Assembly (NCBI RefSeq): GCF_024300645.1
Contig: NZ_CP101291.1
Location: forward strand, 62,001 to 126,000
Origin: Alteromonas sp. LMIT006
GTDB taxonomy: Bacteria; Pseudomonadota; Gammaproteobacteria; Enterobacterales; Alteromonadaceae
Direction of reading: 5' to 3'
Length of the DNA: 64,000 nt
Part shown: positions 52,005-64,000 of the stretch, one piece after another
Layout of the letters: every line of letters starts with the position of its first letter
Position numbering within the stretch: position 1 is the first letter of the stretch
Made by a program: the position numbers and the translations under genes
Notes under the pieces: generated by a model
Seen by the model: only the letters and a program-made list of their open reading frames with translations
Databases searched by the model: none
What the model was told of the DNA's origin: nothing

Positions 52005-52372
52005 GGGGTTGATTAGGATTCGACAGGATTCAATGATACTGGAGGTGCATGCAGAGGTGCGGTTGGCCTCTTAAAAAAGCCGCAAAAAAATAGTCGCAAA
52101 CGACGACAACTACGCACTAGCAGCTTAATAACCTGCTGAGTGCCTTCGCGCCCTAGCTTTCGCCTGTAAGACGGGGAATCACGCGGAGTCAAACCCAAAC
52201 AGGATCGCCCGGCGTCTCCCGCTTGAGAGACAAAGCGCTAAATTTAATTCAAGCTAGTTTGTACTTCGCGTGTCGGTCCGCAGGGTGCAGGCGAATGTAA
52301 AGATTGACTAAGCATGTAGGACCAAAGGTTGACGCTTTCTGGACGCGGGTTCAAATCCCGCCAACTCCACCA
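52005..52372 (+). ncRNA. ssrA: Transfer-messenger RNA (tmRNA)
   Basis: 368-base one-piece tmRNA. The 5' end GGGGTTG pairs with the 3' CAACTCC, followed by A and encoded CCA. The T arm has GGGTTCAAATCCC. The tag ORF starts with the resume GCA at 52096 and reads ANDDNYALAA then TAA (52126-52128), the typical gammaproteobacterial tag. Together with SmpB it frees stalled ribosomes. Its 3' end serves as the likely attachment site of the downstream island. Confidence 0.98.
52350..52372 (+). other. Probable left attachment site (attL) in the ssrA 3' end
   Basis: The last bases of ssrA, including AACTCCACCA, precede a tyrosine integrase gene by about 160 bp, the standard layout of tmRNA-targeting islands. 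The exact core cannot be fixed, because no clean copy of this sequence is seen at the right end. Confidence 0.45.
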
Positions 52373-52383
52373 CATTGATAATT

Positions 52384-52406: not shown

Positions 52407-52535
52407 TTATGCCCAAAATCTTATTAATAAAGGATTTTATGTGTTATTAATGCTCAATAACGCTTAATGACATTCAACATTTAACGTAGTACAGTATGTA
52501 GTATCAACTATTTTTCATTAATGATGGTACTACAA

Positions 52536-53741
52536 ATGGCTAGAACTATGCCTCTTACTAATACCCAAGTAAAACAAGCCAAACCCAAAGACAAGGTTTA
52601 TAAACTTGGAGATGGTGATGGTTTACAACTAAGAGTCAAGCCATCAGGAAGCAAAACATGGCTATTTGATTACATTAAACCTCTAAGTAAAAAAAGATCA
52701 TCATTGGGATTGGGTTCATACCCAGCTATATCACTTGCAGATGCTCGAAAAAGACGAGATTCAGCAAGAGAGTTAATTGCTCAAGGCATTGATCCTAAAG
52801 AGCATAAACAACAAGTCCAAAGACTTGAGCGAGATATAAGTGAAAATACTTTTGAAAAGGTCGCTTCTGATTGGTTCATGGTAAAAAAGACCGAGGTTAC
52901 ACCAGATTATGCTGAGGATATTTGGCGTTCATTAGAGCTTCACATAATACCTAAATTAGGCAAGTACCCAATTAGTAGGATAAACGCTCCGGATACCATA
53001 GAGACACTTAAACCTGTTGCAGCAAAAGGTAACTTAGAAACTATACGGCGCGTATGCCAACGTTTGAATGAAGTCATGAACTTTGCTGTAAATACAGGCT
53101 TAGTTCAAGCAAATCCTCTTTATGGTATTAAATCAGCGTTTAGCAAGCCAAAAAAAGAATTGATGCCAAGCCTTAAACCCGATGAGCTCCCTGAGCTTAT
53201 GGATGCTCTTCAATATGCAAGTATCAAGTTGGTCACACGATGTTTAATAGAATGGCAACTTCATACAATGGTTCGTCCTAGCGAGGCAGTTGGTGCAAGA
53301 TGGTCAGAAATTGACTTTGATGAGTTAATTTGGCGAATTCCTGCTGAACGCATGAAAAAAAGTCGTGAGCATTTTGTGCCTTTAACAGCACAGACAATCA
53401 GGTTATTAGAGCGTCTTAAACCCATAAGTGGCCATCGAGAATATGTTTTCCCTGCAGATCGTAACCCGAAAGAACACATGAACGCACAAACTGCAAATGC
53501 AGCATTAAAGCGAATGGGATTTCAGAAACGACTTGTAGCACATGGCATGAGAGCTTTAGCTAGCACCACATTAAATGAACAGGGATTTGATCCTGATGTC
53601 ATCGAGGCAGCTTTAGCTCATGTTGATAAAAACCAGGTAAGACGAGCTTACAATCGAGCTGATTATTTAGAACGCAGAAGAGAAATGATGGAATGGTGGT
53701 CGGAACATATTTCAATTATGTCCCAAAAGTCAATGTCATAA
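52536..53741 (+). CDS. Tyrosine recombinase/integrase, P4 type
   Basis: Integrase of the island. 401 residues from ATG 52536 (MARTMPLTNTQVKQAKP, the usual opening); an ATG at 52521 adds five residues. The N-terminal DUF4102 arm-binding domain has GDGDGLQLRVKPSGSKTW. A core-binding domain follows. The catalytic set is Arg247 (HTMVRPSEAVGARW), His336 and Arg339 (HGMRALASTTLNE), His362 (ALAHVDKNQV) and Tyr372 (RAYNRADYLERRR). All are present, so it should be active. Confidence 0.95.
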   Translation: MARTMPLTNTQVKQAKPKDKVYKLGDGDGLQLRVKPSGSKTWLFDYIKPLSKKRSSLGLGSYPAISLADARKRRDSARELIAQGIDPKEHKQQVQRLERDISENTFEKVASDWFMVKKTEVTPDYAEDIWRSLELHIIPKLGKYPISRINAPDTIETLKPVAAKGNLETIRRVCQRLNEVMNFAVNTGLVQANPLYGIKSAFSKPKKELMPSLKPDELPELMDALQYASIKLVTRCLIEWQLHTMVRPSEAVGARWSEIDFDELIWRIPAERMKKSREHFVPLTAQTIRLLERLKPISGHREYVFPADRNPKEHMNAQTANAALKRMGFQKRLVAHGMRALASTTLNEQGFDPDVIEAALAHVDKNQVRRAYNRADYLERRREMMEWWSEHISIMSQKSMS

Positions 53742-54472: not shown

Positions 54473-54724
54473 ATGCTTAATAACGACTTACAACTACTTC
54501 GCAGAAATGAAGTCATTCGACTCACTGCTCGTTCAAGATCCTCACTTTTAAACGATGAAAAAGCAGGCCTCTTTTGTCCTCCTGTATCTATTGGTGGGCG
54601 TTCTGTAGCTTATGTCAAACATGAGGTTGAGGCTCTTATTCAAGCCAGAATTCAGGGAAAAACAACGAAAGAGATAAGAGAGTTAGTATCAAATCTAATT
54701 AAAAACAGAGAAGATGGCATTTAG
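54473..54724 (+). CDS. AlpA family phage/island regulator
   Basis: 83 residues with a MerR-like winged helix-turn-helix: LLRRNEVIRLTARSRSSLLN, then FCPPVSIGGRSVAYVKHEVEALI. AlpA proteins activate excision or integrase genes of P4-like elements. It has the AAGGA ribosome site and a possible operator just upstream. Confidence 0.85.
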   Translation: MLNNDLQLLRRNEVIRLTARSRSSLLNDEKAGLFCPPVSIGGRSVAYVKHEVEALIQARIQGKTTKEIRELVSNLIKNREDGI

Positions 54725-56183: not shown

Positions 56184-56531
56184 TCAAGAAGAAATATCAG
56201 ATGGACTCATAAGATGAATATTGATTGGAGGAAGTTCAGTAACAGAGGTTTCCTCCTTCTTGTCCGTCCAACCTGCTTGAGTTCGTAGGTAAAACTTCAA
56301 GAGGTCTTTATCTCCGTTCAATATATGCTGATGGACAATTTCAGAATATTCTGCAATTCGTCTAGACTTACCTTGCTTATATCGTTCGAGTAGTTCAGGT
56401 TGTCTTTTGGCAACTTCGTAATAAGTAGTTTTGGATATACCGAAATACCCAGCTATCTGCTCGACGCTCATTGATGCTGATAATTGCTGTACAACATCTA
56501 AATCTTGACTTGAAAACACTACTTTATCCAT
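56184..56531 (-). CDS. Small helix-turn-helix protein
   Basis: 115 residues on the opposite strand to its neighbours. Residues about 16-40 (SASMSVEQIAGYFGISKTTY) form a clear helix-turn-helix. The next part, including LKFYLRTQAGWTDKKE, recalls small terminase-like or transposon-associated DNA-binding proteins. The stop lies 1 bp from that of the 193-residue gene. Role in the island, perhaps regulation of the divergent Hxs operon, is inference. Confidence 0.65.
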   Translation of the reverse strand: MDKVVFSSQDLDVVQQLSASMSVEQIAGYFGISKTTYYEVAKRQPELLERYKQGKSRRIAEYSEIVHQHILNGDKDLLKFYLRTQAGWTDKKEETSVTELPPINIHLMSPSDISS

Positions 56532-56665: not shown

Positions 56666-57049
56666 ATGTGCCTTAATGTAAAATATACTTTCATAGTTAT
56701 ATGTTGCTTAACTGCGATGTTTTTTTCTACCTCTTCGTTCGCTAACAGTGATGATGAGATAACAAGATTGCTAATGAGCCTTAATAATCATATTGTAAAT
56801 CTTGAGAAGCGTGTTTCTCAGCTAGAAAAACAGCTTAAAACCCCTTCACAAACAATCCCAGTAGGAAATACACAATGGCGCAAACTAAAAAGGGGGATGA
56901 GCATGGATTCTGTAAAAGCGTTACTAGGAGAACCTTTGAAAATTGATGGAGGATACAGAACTTACTATTATTACTCCAAAAATAGTATTTTGGGTCCTCA
57001 CGTTTTATTTATTGATGACTCAGTATACGGTTGGGAAGAACCAGATTGA
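56666..57049 (+). CDS. Secreted protein with coiled coil and BamE/SmpA-like domain
   Basis: 127 residues. A signal peptide (residues 1-26, ending SSSFA) precedes a short coiled coil with leucines and lysines (about 33-58). The C-terminal part WRKLKRGMSMDSVKALLGEP followed by tyrosine-rich strands is the SmpA/OmlA fold used by BamE. Unlike BamE it lacks a lipobox. It is the first gene of the Hxs operon, and its stop overlaps the hxsD start codon, so it is probably an accessory part of that system, perhaps contacting the cell envelope. Confidence 0.7.
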   Translation: MCLNVKYTFIVICCLTAMFFSTSSFANSDDEITRLLMSLNNHIVNLEKRVSQLEKQLKTPSQTIPVGNTQWRKLKRGMSMDSVKALLGEPLKIDGGYRTYYYYSKNSILGPHVLFIDDSVYGWEEPD

Positions 57050-57315
57050 AAATATTACTTAAAAAAAAATCGACATCTGAAATTGCCTTAAGAAAAGCTT
57101 TGTATTGGCTCGATGATGATTGCATGTGGACCTTAACTGAATCAGATAATGAGTGGTTAATTGAGGTTTCCTGTGATGAAAATTTAAAAGAATTGTATAT
57201 TTCAAAAATACATAAACTTGTTAATGATTACACTCTCAGGGAAAGGATAAGCAGCAAAACTGATTCATTGAAAAATGCAATTATTAAAAAAACACTTAAA
57301 GACCTAACAACTTAA
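57046..57315 (+). CDS. hxsD: His-Xaa-Ser system protein HxsD
   Basis: 89 residues from a TTG at 57046 that overlaps the previous stop (TTGA) and follows GGGAAG by seven bases. The family hallmark, LLNDYxLRE, is seen here as LVNDYTLRE near residue 64. The rest (ALRKALYWLDDDCMWTL and WLIEVSCDE) also fits. HxsD is small and cytoplasmic; it may present the substrate peptide to the radical SAM partners, but this is inference. hxsB starts 2 bp after its stop. Confidence 0.85.
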   Translation: MKILLKKKSTSEIALRKALYWLDDDCMWTLTESDNEWLIEVSCDENLKELYISKIHKLVNDYTLRERISSKTDSLKNAIIKKTLKDLTT

Positions 57316-57317
57316 TA

Positions 57318-58721
57318 ATGGCCACATACAAAATCCTTCCTACAAATTTTCGCGAACTTCAAAATGGAAAAGTTTTACTATCTAACTTAGCAAATCACTA
57401 TCAAGTATTAAATAACAAAAAAGAACTCCAAGAGTGTTTCATTCATGAAAGTTCACAAGATATAGACTTACTTAACAAGCTTGAACAGAAATTATTTATT
57501 AGTAGTCCTAAAGATTTTGAAAGTAAAGTTTTACTAACTGCAAGTGCTCTTGCTAAAAATATCAACCGCGATCTTAAGTCACATAGATTAATTATGATAG
57601 TTCCAACTTTACGTTGTGACCACCATTGTAGCTACTGCCAAGTAAGTAGAGTCAATTCAGATTTGAAAGGATACGACTTAGAAATTGAATCTATTCCAAA
57701 TATAATTCGCTGGATACTAAAAGTTGAGCGCGCGCCATATAAAATTGAATTTCAAGGAGGAGAACCATTACTTGCATTTGATTTTATTCGTGATTTTTAT
57801 GAGAAGTTTTCTGAATCAGTTGGTATCGATAACTTTAGTATAGTAATCACTAGCAGCTTATCATTATTGAATAAAGACATAATAAACTGGTGCAAAAATA
57901 AGCCTGTAGAATTTTCTACTAGCATCGATGCAGGCATAAAAGCTCACAACAAGCACCGCAAGCTCATTACCAAAGATTCCTTTCAATTAGTTCAACGAAA
58001 TATTCAGTCAATAACCCAAAACCTAGGCCCAAATAGAGTTGGTACTGTAAGTACGATAACTAGAGAAGGCTTGAATGGTTATGATGAGTTAGTTGATACT
58101 CATATTGCTCTTGGTTTAGGGGGTATGTTTGTTCGCCCTGTAAGTCCTTTCGGATTTGCAGAAGGAAAGCAAGTTAATGATATATCTGTACCTGACTTTA
58201 TGAATTTTTATCGTAAGCTCATAAAACGTGTTTTATCAGAAAATGTTAATGGGTACAAACTAGTAGAGTATTTCTTATTAATTCATTACAAGAGGATTCT
58301 AAACAATCCTAACTCCGCTTATGTTGACTTGATGGCTCCAGCTGGCTACTTAAAAAATACATTACTATTTGATTACACTGGAAACATTTTCGGATCCGAT
58401 GAAGCCAGAATGGTATACAGAAAATATGGAAATGATTCATTGATTCTCGGGCATGTAAATGACGAAAATCTAGATCTGACAAGCTCTATTCATTTACTCT
58501 CAGAATCATTTAATTTCGACGTCCCTGGCTGTAGTGATTGCGTATATCAAGGAAGTTGTGGCAGTGACCCCGTTTACCATTTGCAGCATTATGGAGAGCC
58601 TATTGGCCTTAAAGGTTCCTCGCGATTTTGTGAACTTCATAAGAGTATATTTGACTTTATATTTGAGCTTCTAGAATCAAAAGAGGTAAAAAAAATTCTT
58701 GATAGGTGGTTATGTGAATAA
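57318..58721 (+). CDS. hxsB: His-Xaa-Ser system radical SAM maturase HxsB
   Basis: 467 residues. The radical SAM cluster motif is C100-x3-C104-x2-C107 in TLRCDHHCSYCQVSR. EFQGGEPLL is the SAM-binding GGE motif. About 90 residues before the core form a separate N-terminal domain. The C-terminal SPASM-type region has cysteines in GCSDCVYQGSCGSD and FCELHK for auxiliary clusters. Such enzymes crosslink or otherwise alter ribosomally made peptides; the expected substrate is HxsA. The gene overlaps hxsC and has no strong ribosome site, so it relies on coupling to hxsD. Confidence 0.93.
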   Translation: MATYKILPTNFRELQNGKVLLSNLANHYQVLNNKKELQECFIHESSQDIDLLNKLEQKLFISSPKDFESKVLLTASALAKNINRDLKSHRLIMIVPTLRCDHHCSYCQVSRVNSDLKGYDLEIESIPNIIRWILKVERAPYKIEFQGGEPLLAFDFIRDFYEKFSESVGIDNFSIVITSSLSLLNKDIINWCKNKPVEFSTSIDAGIKAHNKHRKLITKDSFQLVQRNIQSITQNLGPNRVGTVSTITREGLNGYDELVDTHIALGLGGMFVRPVSPFGFAEGKQVNDISVPDFMNFYRKLIKRVLSENVNGYKLVEYFLLIHYKRILNNPNSAYVDLMAPAGYLKNTLLFDYTGNIFGSDEARMVYRKYGNDSLILGHVNDENLDLTSSIHLLSESFNFDVPGCSDCVYQGSCGSDPVYHLQHYGEPIGLKGSSRFCELHKSIFDFIFELLESKEVKKILDRWLCE

Positions 58722-59817
58722 CGTTGAAAGACCTGATTTATTTACTATTGATGCTTTAAAAGGGCTATCTGGTCCAGTTCAAATTTTAAAGAATAACTCA
58801 GGACATTCACTCATAAACGCACCAATTACACAAGTACTACTCTCAAATGATGAAAGTAGTCAAAGTGAACATTTTACGTTTTGGCATGCTGAACTTGATA
58901 AATGGACGACGCATGGAGACATTGGGTACATTGATCATAAAGGAAAAATTAGAATTGTATTAAGCAAATTGGCTAACGCAAATACACTATTAGTTACAGA
59001 GCGTTGCGATAATTTATGTTTATTCTGCTCGCAACCACCACGAGAAGTTGATGATACCATCCTCTATGCTTACGCAGCGTCATCTATAGTATCTTTTAAT
59101 ACCGAATCAGTAATAGGTATTTCTGGAGGAGAGCCATTATTAGATAGAAAAGCCATTTTCAACTTCTTTGATATCTTAAACAAATTCGAAAATAAAACAC
59201 CATTGCATATTTTAACAAATGGGCGCGCCTTTAAAGACAAAACGTTCACTAAGTCAATACAGGAAAAAATTACTGGGCGGGAAGTGCAATTTGGGATCCC
59301 GTTGTACTCTACTAATAGCGTTATTCATGACCGATTAGTCAATGCAGATAACGCCTGGTCAGAAACAATTAAAGGACTTATAAACGCAGGTAATCATGGT
59401 ATTCCAATAGAGCTGAGAATTATACCTACCCAACAAAACGTCCATGAGTTATCAGCTATAATTGAAATGGCTGCTACTTCCTTAAATCATATAAGTAGCA
59501 TCTCAATAATGAATTTGGAACAAACTGGTTGGGCTAGAAAAAACTGGGAGCAATTGTATTTGCATCCATCCGAGTACACTGAACAATTAACTGCAGCATG
59601 CTCTCTGAAAGAACGATTTAAAATCAATATTAATCTCTTCAATTATCCTCTTTGTCACATACCTGAAGAGCTACATAAGCACTGTCATAAATCAATAAGT
59701 GACTGGAAAAACATTTACCCAAAAGAGTGTAATTATTGTATAGTTAAGAATAAATGTTGTGGATTCTTTTCATCTTGTAAAGATATGGTTACCACACCAA
59801 TAGGAAGAATTTTATGA
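58714..59817 (+). CDS. hxsC: His-Xaa-Ser system radical SAM maturase HxsC
   Basis: 367 residues from GTG 58714, which follows AGGTGG and overlaps the hxsB end by 8 bp; a TTG at 58699 is a weaker choice. The cluster motif is C98-x3-C102-x2-C105 in ERCDNLCLFCSQPPRE. SGGEPLLDRK is the SAM motif. The C-terminal region has six cysteines (ECNYCIVKNKCCGFF and SSCKD), which may hold another cluster. It acts with HxsB in the same pathway, judging by the invariant gene order of the family. The hxsA ATG overlaps its stop. Confidence 0.93.
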   Translation: MNNVERPDLFTIDALKGLSGPVQILKNNSGHSLINAPITQVLLSNDESSQSEHFTFWHAELDKWTTHGDIGYIDHKGKIRIVLSKLANANTLLVTERCDNLCLFCSQPPREVDDTILYAYAASSIVSFNTESVIGISGGEPLLDRKAIFNFFDILNKFENKTPLHILTNGRAFKDKTFTKSIQEKITGREVQFGIPLYSTNSVIHDRLVNADNAWSETIKGLINAGNHGIPIELRIIPTQQNVHELSAIIEMAATSLNHISSISIMNLEQTGWARKNWEQLYLHPSEYTEQLTAACSLKERFKININLFNYPLCHIPEELHKHCHKSISDWKNIYPKECNYCIVKNKCCGFFSSCKDMVTTPIGRIL

Positions 59818-60368
59818 AAAATAAAAGACGCAACCTTGTTAGTTTATTCACCGGATTTACTGCATTAGCTTCACAAACAAGTGCAAGCGAGGACAATCCA
59901 ATTGAAACTGTAAATGAATTTGATTTTTTAAACGAAGTTGAAACAGCTCCATTAAACGCAGGTGAAATGCCAGAATATTTGGCTGGACATCGCAGTCATT
60001 CATCACATGCGAGTCATGGGTCACACCGCTCTAGCTCAGGGGGAACACGCCCCACTCCTGTTCCATCTTACCCAGCTCCAGCTCCCTCAGAGCCACTTGC
60101 ACAACCTTCAAGACCAAAGGCAAGCATTCCATCTGCTGAACAACGAAAATTTAACCAGATAATGTCCGATAAAGAAAAAAGAAAAAACATTATCTTACGA
60201 GTGCAACTCACCCTTCAAGCTATGAATATTTATAATGGTAATTTAGACGGTGTTATGGGACCTGATACTCGATTGGCAGTTAATACCTATAGACTTTCGA
60301 AAGGACTTCCAATTAAAGATACATTAGATCTTAAAGTTCTAAACTCATTAGGCATTGCTGTTCTGTAG
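59814..60368 (+). CDS. hxsA: His-Xaa-Ser repeat protein HxsA, the likely modified substrate
   Basis: 184 residues. A signal peptide covers about residues 1-24. Then come an acidic stretch (27-56) and five perfect tandem HxS triplets at residues 59-73 (HRS, HSS, HAS, HGS, HRS; bases 59988-60032). A proline-rich linker (80-105) leads to a peptidoglycan-binding domain 1 (about 125-182: QAMNIYNGNLDGVMGPDTRL). The protein is thus exported and held at the cell wall. The triplets are the expected site of radical SAM modification. The start has GGAAG and overlaps hxsC by 4 bp. Confidence 0.93.
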   Translation: MKNKRRNLVSLFTGFTALASQTSASEDNPIETVNEFDFLNEVETAPLNAGEMPEYLAGHRSHSSHASHGSHRSSSGGTRPTPVPSYPAPAPSEPLAQPSRPKASIPSAEQRKFNQIMSDKEKRKNIILRVQLTLQAMNIYNGNLDGVMGPDTRLAVNTYRLSKGLPIKDTLDLKVLNSLGIAVL

Positions 60369-60373
60369 ATAAA

Positions 60374-60739
60374 ATGAAAAATTTAAACAAGATTGCTACC
60401 GTCTGCTTGATAATTATTACTGGGACATATTTGTGGGAAACTTTTGGCTTATCAATATATACCTATCAACGCTTTAAAACTGAGTATATGGAACTGAACT
60501 TGAAATGTGCTCATGCTATGGACAGTAATTGGTATATTGAGCAAATGGATAACGAGAAAATCCAGATGTCGAGCGAAATACAATTACTAGACTGCCATGA
60601 TTACGATAAACTAAGAAAAAAAATGCTTGCTCGTGGAGTAAGTGAGCATCAACTTTCATATTTAGGGCTGGTCGCCCTTGAAATTCATCAAAAACCAGCT
60701 AAAGATTTAGCTATACATCATAAGTTTAGAGAACGTTGA
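60374..60739 (+). CDS. Small membrane protein of the Hxs system (TIGR03982-like)
   Basis: 121 residues, ATG 60374, 5 bp after hxsA. One membrane segment near the N-terminus (about 7-24) anchors a mostly helical, charged domain with two cysteines (NLKCAHAMD and LLDCHDYDK) that would be in the periplasm. From memory a small family of this kind accompanies Hxs genes. Its stop overlaps the next ATG (TGATG). Role unknown; it could be a chaperone or a docking factor for the MauG-like protein. Confidence 0.7.
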   Translation: MKNLNKIATVCLIIITGTYLWETFGLSIYTYQRFKTEYMELNLKCAHAMDSNWYIEQMDNEKIQMSSEIQLLDCHDYDKLRKKMLARGVSEHQLSYLGLVALEIHQKPAKDLAIHHKFRER

Positions 60740-61974
60740 TGAGATTTCTACTTTGCATTCTACTTTTCTTTATATCAAATAATTGCTTATCTTCTAGCAT
60801 CGACTTTAAATTGGACAAAGTCATAGAGATATACAAATTAAACGGCTTTGATTGTAAAGCAACACAACCCCATAACAAAAAGTTAACAGCACTCGGTAAA
60901 GAACTTTTTGATAGTACACTTCTTAGTGGTGGAAATGATACATCTTGTTCCACTTGCCATTTAGCTCAACGACATAGAACAGATGGGTTATCACTTGCAA
61001 TCGGCGTAGGAGGTAAAGGAGAAGGTACTGAGAGACTTTTGGAAGGTAACGGAATTATTGTACCAAGAAATGCTTTCACATTTTCAGGTAGAGGACACAA
61101 AGATTATGTTACTTATTTCTGGGACGGCAAAGTTGAAGTTCAGTCAAAAAAAATAGTAAATATCCTTGGAAACATGACGGATAAAGGTTTTGACTCACCT
61201 TTCGCTATGGCTACAATTTTACCAATTTTAGCTAGAGATGAGTTTTTAGGTCTTCTAGATTATTCCAAGAGTAATGAAATGGTTGCAATTGATGACTCAT
61301 ATTATGAGGCCAGATATGACCATGCATCACAATTTTTAAAAGATAAGATAAAAAACTCGAAAGGTAGTAAATGGGATGAGCTTAGAAACCTTTTTATAAA
61401 ATCTAGTATTGACTTGGAAAAGCTTGAGCTATCTCACTTAGGTAACGCGATAAGTTCTTTTTTGATAGAAACTGAAAATTGTTTTGAATCAAAATGGTCT
61501 CATTATATCAAAGGGGATAAAACAGCGCTTAATGAACTACAAAAAAAAGGAGCTTATCTTTTTTATGGTAAAGGAAGATGTGCGTCTTGTCATAGCGGTG
61601 ATTTATTGAGTGATTTTAAATTTCATTCTATTGCCGTTCCCCAGGGCAAATTTGGATTCAGCATCGATGGGCAGGATTTAGGAAGATCTGAAATTTCTCT
61701 TCGTTATGAAGATAGATTTAAATTTAAAACACCATCACTGCTTAATGTTATTAATACACCACCGTATGGTCATAATGGCATCTTTAACACTCTGGACGAA
61801 GTGATACTATTTCACCTCAACCCTGTTCCATTTTTTTCAATGTACGAATATTCTGAGGATGAAATTTATAACTACGGAAGAGTTCTATCTAGTCGCTCTC
61901 AGTTACTATCTCATATAGAGATTTTCACTGAAGAAGAGGTAAATCAATTAGTTGAGTTTGTTAAAACATTATAA
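60739..61974 (+). CDS. MauG-like di-heme protein of the Hxs system
   Basis: 411 residues from ATG 60739. A signal peptide is followed by a di-heme cytochrome c peroxidase/MauG fold. Heme motifs are C70-S-T-C73-H74 and C281-A-S-C284-H285; the conserved KTPSLLNVINTPPYGHNG lies near residue 335. In methylamine dehydrogenase maturation, MauG oxidises a protein residue to a quinone cofactor. A corresponding role on exported HxsA is inferred. Ordinary peroxide removal is the alternative. It is the last gene of the operon. Confidence 0.88.
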   Translation: MRFLLCILLFFISNNCLSSSIDFKLDKVIEIYKLNGFDCKATQPHNKKLTALGKELFDSTLLSGGNDTSCSTCHLAQRHRTDGLSLAIGVGGKGEGTERLLEGNGIIVPRNAFTFSGRGHKDYVTYFWDGKVEVQSKKIVNILGNMTDKGFDSPFAMATILPILARDEFLGLLDYSKSNEMVAIDDSYYEARYDHASQFLKDKIKNSKGSKWDELRNLFIKSSIDLEKLELSHLGNAISSFLIETENCFESKWSHYIKGDKTALNELQKKGAYLFYGKGRCASCHSGDLLSDFKFHSIAVPQGKFGFSIDGQDLGRSEISLRYEDRFKFKTPSLLNVINTPPYGHNGIFNTLDEVILFHLNPVPFFSMYEYSEDEIYNYGRVLSSRSQLLSHIEIFTEEEVNQLVEFVKTL

Positions 61975-62782: not shown

Positions 62783-63496
62783 TTAGTTATCCAAGTAATA
62801 CTGTACATTGGTCACGACTCTCACGGTTTTAAACAATTTGCGAGTATCAGAGTAGGATTCGCCAACATCTAATATGGTGAAACGCCCTTGAGATGCATCA
62901 CGTATTCCGCCAATACCCGCTCCTACATTATTTGCAAACTCTTGCGCAGCAATGCGAGCATTTTGTGTTGCCTCTTGGATCATTTCAGGTTTAATTTGAT
63001 TGAGCTGTGTGAAGTGATATTCCGGCTCATGATTATCAAGCGCTATGCCTTTTGCGATAAGCTTGTTTAAGGAAGTGCGTGAGGATTTTACCAAATCAAC
63101 ATTTTGCGTAATGATATGAATGTCACCTTCTAATGTTCGCCTTGTTTCTACTAGATTATTATCCTCATCACGCAGTTCATAAAAAGAGATATTCGCAACA
63201 TCGATTTCTATTTCATCCTCTGAAAAACCTTCTTCAATAAGCGCATCATAAATGGCTTGCGTATCCTCTTGATAACGCTCATATAAATAGGAGGTGGGTA
63301 ATGAATCATCGGTGGTTTTTAAGCCTTTACTCACAGTCCAATAGGCAGTATCTGCTTTTACTTCACGCTCTGCCAAACCTTTCACTCTAATAGTATTTTG
63401 TGCAGTAGATGAATTAACCAGTGTTTGACTGATAAAAAAACCAGCTAGGGCAATGCCTGCGGCCATAAATAACATGTTGTATTGTCTTATCATCAT
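62783..63496 (-). CDS. SIMPL domain protein (DUF541, YggE-like)
   Basis: 237 residues with an N-terminal membrane or signal segment (about 8-26). The SIMPL fold is seen in IRVKGLAEREVKADTAYW and the ENARIAAQ-like ATQNARIAAQEFANNVG stretch. YggE-type proteins are linked to oxidative stress, but their action is unclear. It marks the return of ordinary chromosome after the island. The 240-bp gap downstream, up to the lipoprotein gene, shows no feature. Confidence 0.85.
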   Translation of the reverse strand: MMIRQYNMLFMAAGIALAGFFISQTLVNSSTAQNTIRVKGLAEREVKADTAYWTVSKGLKTTDDSLPTSYLYERYQEDTQAIYDALIEEGFSEDEIEIDVANISFYELRDEDNNLVETRRTLEGDIHIITQNVDLVKSSRTSLNKLIAKGIALDNHEPEYHFTQLNQIKPEMIQEATQNARIAAQEFANNVGAGIGGIRDASQGRFTILDVGESYSDTRKLFKTVRVVTNVQYYLDN

Positions 63497-63596
63497 GAAT
63501 AATTCCTAAAAATGTGTTGAATAATGAAATTTGCTTCCATAAAAATGCAATCCTTTGCATTAGCTCCCTAATATTTTTCTTACTCTCTTGGAGGGA

Positions 63597-64000
63597 TTAA
63601 TTTTTTGCTACTTGCACATCCGAGATTGGACGAATATCAATTGCGACTCGGCGGTCAAACATCAGCTCTTCAACATTCACAACCTCAACACCATCTGAAT
63701 GAGAACTTGTTTGGTTTGCCTCGCCTACGCCTTTCACGATGATATTTGGCTCAATCGCTTTATCGCCTAACTTGGCTAGTAAACCTTGAGTAATGTAATG
63801 CTCCACCATTTCTGCTCGTGAGCGTGATAAATCATAGTTAAATTCGTCATCTCCGCGCTTATCTGCATAACCAGTTAAGGTCACTAGCCAATTCTCGTGA
63901 CTTGCTAGTAATTTGATGAGTAAGTCCAACTGAGGCTCGTAAATGGATGAAATATTACTCGCACCTGTGGCAAATTGAATGTGAGTTAGCAACTCAGGAA
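63597..64000 (-). CDS. OmpA-like domain protein (5' end cut by window)
   Basis: The frame is open from base 64000 down to the stop at 63597, about 134 residues; an apparent TTG start at 63992 is only the window edge. The OmpA-type peptidoglycan-binding domain is clear: IQFATGASNISSIYEPQLD, then TLTGYADKRGDDEFNYDLSRSRAEMVEHY, with the conserved Asp and Arg. The C-terminal DRRVAIDI is typical. The missing N-terminal part could be a barrel, a lipoprotein anchor or a flexible region. Confidence 0.85.
   Translation of the reverse strand, partial: PELLTHIQFATGASNISSIYEPQLDLLIKLLASHENWLVTLTGYADKRGDDEFNYDLSRSRAEMVEHYITQGLLAKLGDKAIEPNIIVKGVGEANQTSSHSDGVEVVNVEELMFDRRVAIDIRPISDVQVAKN

Follow-up and report, generated by a model that had tools for sequence, protein, structure and literature searches.

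What do the genes of a His-Xaa-Ser (Hxs) operon modify, and does the heme enzyme that some of these operons encode act on the same protein as their radical S-adenosylmethionine (SAM) enzymes? These questions are raised by a locus of Alteromonas sp. LMIT006, located at positions 56666-61974 of a 64,000-nucleotide window (contig NZ_CP101291.1, positions 62,001 to 126,000 of the forward strand; the window is the whole stretch of DNA that was analysed), for which a sequence-only reading had proposed a complete seven-gene Hxs operon on a mobile island. Judged by its genes, the locus is a genuine Hxs operon, complete and to all appearances intact, of the variant that carries TIGR03981 and TIGR03982 genes, and a bis-His heme enzyme paired with the TIGR03982 protein fits the evidence better than a MauG-like oxidation of the HxsA protein. 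Seven open reading frames (ORFs), all on the + strand, are contiguous, with neighbouring ends that overlap or differ by no more than 8 bases:

56666-57049, + strand: first gene, BamE-like exported protein (PF04355, 21.8 bits, below the cut-off of 23.2)
57046-57315, + strand: hxsD, TTG start (TIGR03976, 61.4 bits versus 50)
57318-58721, + strand: hxsB, radical SAM maturase (TIGR03978, 449.8 versus 370)
58714-59817, + strand: hxsC, radical SAM maturase, GTG start (TIGR03977, 358.2 versus 267.9)
59814-60368, + strand: hxsA, predicted substrate (TIGR03979, 143.5 versus 121.65)
60374-60739, + strand: small membrane-anchored protein (TIGR03982, 129 versus 40)
60739-61974, + strand: MauG-like di-heme c-type protein (TIGR03981, 483.8 versus 340)

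Family membership was assigned by NCBIfam profile scores in bits, compared with curated cut-offs, and Pfam was used separately. All four core proteins, HxsA, HxsB, HxsC and HxsD, scored above their cut-offs in this TIGRFAM/NCBIfam check, as did the products of the TIGR03982 and TIGR03981 genes adjoining hxsA, that is, six of the seven proteins. The features listed by the sequence-only reading were found at their positions, including two CxxxCxxC motifs, the LVNDYTLRE signature, five tandem HxS triplets and two CxxCH motifs. Its seven-gene operon stands as seven packed ORFs but not as a conserved unit, since the BamE-like first gene falls short of the Pfam gathering score and none of the other Hxs loci examined contains a homologue of it; the conserved operon thus comprises six genes, and the BamE-like gene is best described as accessory. 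The Hxs system, defined as NCBIfam TIGR03976 to TIGR03979 by Haft and Basu, as cited in PMC9062424, has the same D-B-C-A order and an HxS array, and nothing excludes membership of the locus, which adds one further copy of a gene set already defined in databases. Compared with the NCBIfam core, it has in addition the optional TIGR03982 and TIGR03981 genes and, in front, the non-conserved BamE-like gene. The arrangement of adjacent genes on one strand is repeated in related and distant loci: a relative from the same order (genus g48), Pseudoalteromonas shioyasakiensis, Alteromonas sp. a30 and plasmids of Tritonibacter and Thioclava all have the order hxsB-hxsC-hxsA-TIGR03982-MauG-like, and their operons are without a BamE-like gene. 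Promoter and terminator scans remained at or below chance level, and PADLOC returned only weak viperin-type radical SAM matches, which were read as superfamily background. The earlier remark that no product or role is established holds, as no experimental paper on either was found for Hxs in the literature searched.

The predicted substrate HxsA contains the array HRS-HSS-HAS-HGS-HRS, five tandem HxS triplets, whereas in 20,000 shuffles of the protein the longest tandem run was 2. All five His residues of HxsA lie inside the array, and Trp and Cys are absent. A Sec-type, signal-peptide-like N-terminus precedes the array, which is followed by a Pro/Ser linker and a C-terminal part; we infer that HxsA is exported and associated with the cell wall, on the evidence of its N-terminal sequence and of a peptidoglycan-binding match that is below the cut-off. 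The arrays of the Hxs loci comprise 5 to 11 triplets, in which H and S are strict and X is free (S, R, Y, A, G). Two HxsA architectures occur, a long one with 105-150 residues past the array, as in LMIT006, and a short one in which the array lies at the very C-terminal end. HxsA-like ORFs of the short kind, with 6 to 11 HxS triplets at the C-terminus and lacking the long stretch behind the array, were also seen close to hxsB/hxsC in L026, L027, L028, L037, L108 and L109.

HxsB carries CDHHCSYC (CxxxCxxC) at residues 100-107 and HxsC carries CDNLCLFC (CxxxCxxC) at residues 98-105. Across 34 HxsB loci each protein has 7 invariant Cys, namely the radical SAM triad and four in the C-terminal part (C405, C408, C414 and C438 in HxsB; C314, C339, C342 and C348 in HxsC), and the latter four would be enough for one auxiliary cluster in each enzyme. 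Neither HxsB nor HxsC has a signal peptide, and together with the invariant Cys and the Sec-type N-terminus of HxsA this supports the earlier proposal that both enzymes modify HxsA before its export. The small HxsD protein carries the LVNDYTLRE signature, and an HxsD-like small ORF lies directly 5' of hxsB in most loci inspected, often diverged beyond the profile; in the alphaproteobacterial loci no HxsD is recognised by TIGR03976. The AlphaFold model of HxsD (predicted local distance difference test score, pLDDT, 90.6) has a beta-alpha-beta-beta-alpha order, and its best resemblance in the PDB is weak and of the Pcc1/ferredoxin-like type (E 0.044). HxsD as a PqqD-type recognition element for ribosomally synthesised and post-translationally modified peptides was rejected, as no PqqD profile matched and the model fold differs from the PqqD-type winged helix.

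Which reaction might the two maturases perform? Triceptide maturases are radical SAM enzymes that join an aromatic residue to the residue at i+2: the bond runs from C4(Phe) to C-beta(Ser) with MscB, from C2(His) to C-beta(Ala) with HaaB and ScaB, and from C2(His) to C-beta(Arg) with YhhB, all of these cross-links connecting i and i+2 (PMC11002830). His donors and Ser acceptors are therefore both known (PMC11002830), and as the HxS triplet holds one of each, a His-Ser ring is the simplest prediction; the spacing of the motif agrees with the i,i+2 bond pattern, the HxS bond itself being predicted. Unlike the triceptide maturases MscB, HaaB and YhhB, HxsB pairs with HxsC and HxsD and would act on a tandem array within a large protein that is exported, and it stays far below the cut-offs of the triceptide maturase families GrrM (34.7/310), YhhB (42/445) and AmcB (30.4/425). 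In the mechanism that we propose, HxsB and HxsC, aided by HxsD, would act in the cytoplasm on the tandem triplets of HxsA and form in each triplet a ring bond that links the imidazole of the His with the beta-carbon of the Ser at i+2, giving a triceptide-like cyclophane repeated along the array. Modified HxsA would then leave the cytoplasm by means of its signal peptide, and its C-terminal domain would keep it at the cell wall; the di-heme enzyme and the TIGR03982 protein, the latter anchored in the membrane, would operate as a pair in the periplasm. The heme enzyme would probably be a bis-His peroxidase or oxidase that swaps electrons with TIGR03982 or modifies it, rather than a MauG-type bis-Fe(IV) oxidant of HxsA. 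Taken together, Hxs membership and this outline of the mechanism are somewhat favoured in our judgement, whereas the His-Ser ring chemistry by itself is put forward only tentatively.

Equally tentative is another reaction of HxsB and HxsC on the triplets, be it an oxidation that turns Ser into formylglycine or into an aminomalonate-type residue, or an epimerisation. Anaerobic sulfatase maturases oxidise Ser or Cys, HxsB is weakly similar to one of their families (TIGR03942, 2.3e-9), and two maturases could mean two reactions; however, such chemistry leaves unexplained that the His is as strictly kept as the Ser, at a fixed i,i+2 spacing.

Somewhat less probable is that the HxS array constitutes a metal site, for example for copper or nickel, at the cell wall, with the system serving metal handling or stress. 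The confinement of every HxsA His to the array would suit such a site, and two precedents were counted in its favour: noursin binds copper through a His-butyrine cross-link (PMC10206099), and methanobactin operons encode the di-heme/partner pair MbnH/MbnP, for which a part in copper homeostasis has been suggested, not established (PMC3621798). Yet the surroundings of the Hxs loci inspected contain no conserved gene for metal transport or resistance, the MbnH and MauG family cut-offs are missed by the heme protein of LMIT006, and metal binding by an HxS array is purely putative.

In the case of the heme protein, the sequence-only reading had suggested that after export a heme enzyme may oxidise HxsA residues already modified by HxsB and HxsC; a protein-derived cofactor would be completed in this way. 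Such a course has a precedent in quinohemoprotein amine dehydrogenase, in which radical SAM modification is followed by export and then oxidation. The di-heme gene lies in the operon, its product is exported, and the family bears the NCBI name SAM_quin_mod / His-Xaa-Ser-associated MauG-like. The protein has two CxxCH motifs, CSTCH and CASCH, at residues 70 and 281, and shares these and the PYxHNG region with MauG and MbnH, the alignment extending over the C-terminal domain. When this C-terminal part was aligned to MauG from the PDB, His359 fell on Tyr294, which in MauG is the distal axial ligand of the six-coordinate heme; the best PDB chain was 3ORV, a MauG with His at 294, and the other MauG chain shown has Tyr. 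His occupies the position in 10/10 Hxs MauG-like proteins. In the Hxs members Trp128 of the FWDG motif and Glu168 are also kept, as candidate counterparts of the interheme Trp93 and the catalytic Glu113 of MauG. Scores against TIGR03791 (MauG, 76.6/443.85) and TIGR04039 (MbnH, 90.9/362.85) are far below the cut-offs. In the MauG variant Y294H and the BthA variant Y463H the near-infrared bis-Fe(IV) feature is lost, whereas peroxide reduction persists in BthA Y463H (PMC6405878). A bis-His heme is found in RoxA, which is a di-heme oxygenase and has a MauG motif (PMC6311187). As HxsA of LMIT006 contains neither Trp nor Cys, a MauG-type Trp oxidation of HxsA is impossible here. Moreover, five-triplet HxS arrays also occur in loci without the heme enzyme, as most HxS-array loci are, and its constant partner is TIGR03982. 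For these reasons the oxidation of HxsA in the manner of MauG is considered unlikely.

Each of the ten variant loci has both the TIGR03982 and the MauG-like gene, and 0/25 of the other HxsB loci have the pair; at least three gains or losses of it must be assumed on the HxsB tree, and in the order-wide sample the MauG-like protein is above its cut-off in only 2 of the 13 genomes with HxsB. As the two genes always come jointly and are missing from most Hxs loci, the pair is an optional, separable module. The TIGR03982 protein, with Trp53 conserved in 9/10 members and two invariant Cys, would for this reason be a better candidate partner of the heme enzyme than HxsA. A ccmF homologue found in the host genome suggests that the host is able to attach c-type heme. 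A second MauG-like di-heme gene was observed right after the first one in the Pseudoalteromonas Hxs locus (L003:11658-12986; TIGR03981, 245.8 bits versus 340).

Several observations weigh against the mechanism proposed here, in which HxsB and HxsC form His-Ser rings and the bis-His heme enzyme works with TIGR03982. In the literature searched, there is no Hxs member whose chemistry has been demonstrated. HxsB scores higher with PapB and TIGR04083 than with YhhB or GrrM, and its nearest solved structure is 5WGG, annotated as 'Radical SAM domain protein' (E 2.6e-5), which we take to be the SCIFF maturase CteB; HxsB is no particularly close relative of the cyclophane-forming families. The match of the HxsA C-terminal part to the peptidoglycan-binding-like family PF01471 is weak (17.2 versus a cut-off of 23). 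Among relatives of the heme enzyme outside Hxs loci, the position of Tyr294 is occupied by His in 45 rows, by Tyr in 11 and by Met in 1, and these rows include a few second copies of Hxs members; the His is thus the mark of a subfamily rather than of the Hxs role. The model of the TIGR03982 protein is helical (pLDDT 78) and had no match when compared with solved folds, and co-occurrence is the sole ground for its putative role as a partner. A further, bolder reading is given a low probability: the array would become a series of fused His-Ser cyclophanes carried by a full-length, cell-wall-associated protein, serving as a protein-borne cofactor or metal site rather than as a released peptide, and the variant would be served by a separable electron-transfer module consisting of the bis-His di-heme enzyme and the TIGR03982 membrane protein.

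The surroundings of the operon bear out its placement on a mobile island, which runs past the end of the window. The following features precede the operon:

52005-52372, + strand: transfer-messenger RNA (tmRNA) gene, integration target (ARAGORN)
52356-52375, + strand: left attachment site TCCCGCCAACTCCACCACAT, 20 bp (exact-repeat search)
52521-53741, + strand: tyrosine integrase (Pfam PF00589/PF13356/PF22022; NF007246, 536.7 bits versus 434)
54473-54724, + strand: AlpA-like regulator of the island (PF05930, 36.5 bits)
56184-56531, - strand: small helix-turn-helix protein, divergent (weak HTH_23/HTH_17 matches, below cut-off)

The integrase gene directly follows the tmRNA gene, and the 20-bp tmRNA end is repeated exactly 21.7 kb downstream: in a repeat search that covered the window and the next 20 kb, an exact copy of TCCCGCCAACTCCACCACAT was found 10,059 bases beyond the end of the window, followed after another 161 bp by a partial copy of 16 bp. 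The island is thus tmRNA-integrated and measures about 21.7 kb, ~10 kb of it beyond the window. The G+C content is 31-39% from about 53 kb on versus 40-49% upstream. Same-genus genomes differ at the tmRNA site; in one of them (L130:2119-3318) an integrase 55% identical to that of LMIT006 adjoins its tmRNA, which suggests that both genomes share an integration hotspot with different cargo. Between the tmRNA repeats, 62783-64000 and L105:623-3545 contain genes for a SIMPL-family and an OmpA-like protein, then a response regulator and a kinase, which form the 'proteobacterial dedicated sortase system' pair (TIGR03787 and TIGR03785, both over cut-off), and near the right repeat (L105:6724-9669) ADP-ribosylglycohydrolase-like, N-formylglutamate deformylase-like and macro-domain genes are adjacent and had no PADLOC match. 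As the repeats enclose this two-component pair and the ADP-ribose-processing genes, the island may be composite. For the divergent helix-turn-helix protein, a possible regulator or transposase-like protein and at most a putative part of the Hxs system, the other Hxs loci examined gave no homologue.

HxsB was present in 1/61 near relatives, 13/395 genomes of the order and 5/369 of the class, a sporadic distribution that fits horizontal spread. Although this distribution could also be expected of functionless, decaying cargo of the island, such a state is very improbable, given that none of the six conserved ORFs is disrupted, no cluster or heme ligand has been lost, scores exceed the curated cut-offs and the gene order is constant in distant loci. 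The close-relative scan of genome contigs revealed two near neighbours only, the scans of viral contigs gave none, and E. coli genomes contained nothing similar at the DNA level. An hxsB relative, typically with about 39% identity, was found in 318 Klebsiella plasmid records, mostly conjugative, and the one inspected (L023:17726-21123) has hxsDBCA and is without the heme module. Further Hxs loci were found on a Leptospira phage and next to genes for mobilisation or transposition. A gene for a TIGR04141/DUF6119 protein begins 24 bp past hxsA in two loci of the enterobacterial type that are without the heme module (L031:10141-11742 and L033:10141-11751). Some Hxs loci lie near a DS-9-type phosphoesterase, which is anti-phage (L107:10630-12237), components of a cyclic oligonucleotide-based anti-phage signalling system (CBASS; L113:2027-4314) or a DUF262 protein, possibly GmrSD-like by eye only (L033:12532-14418); the defence role that these neighbourhoods may suggest is a lead, not a claim.

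The Hxs system is widespread, with members on hundreds of Klebsiella plasmids and in phage and other plasmid records, and the LMIT006 locus represents a compact and complete copy of its rarer heme-enzyme variant. For this variant the question has become specific, namely whether HxsA would lose 2 Da per HxS triplet, whether the heme enzyme would have a bis-His heme without a bis-Fe(IV) signal, and whether it would act with TIGR03982 rather than on HxsA.

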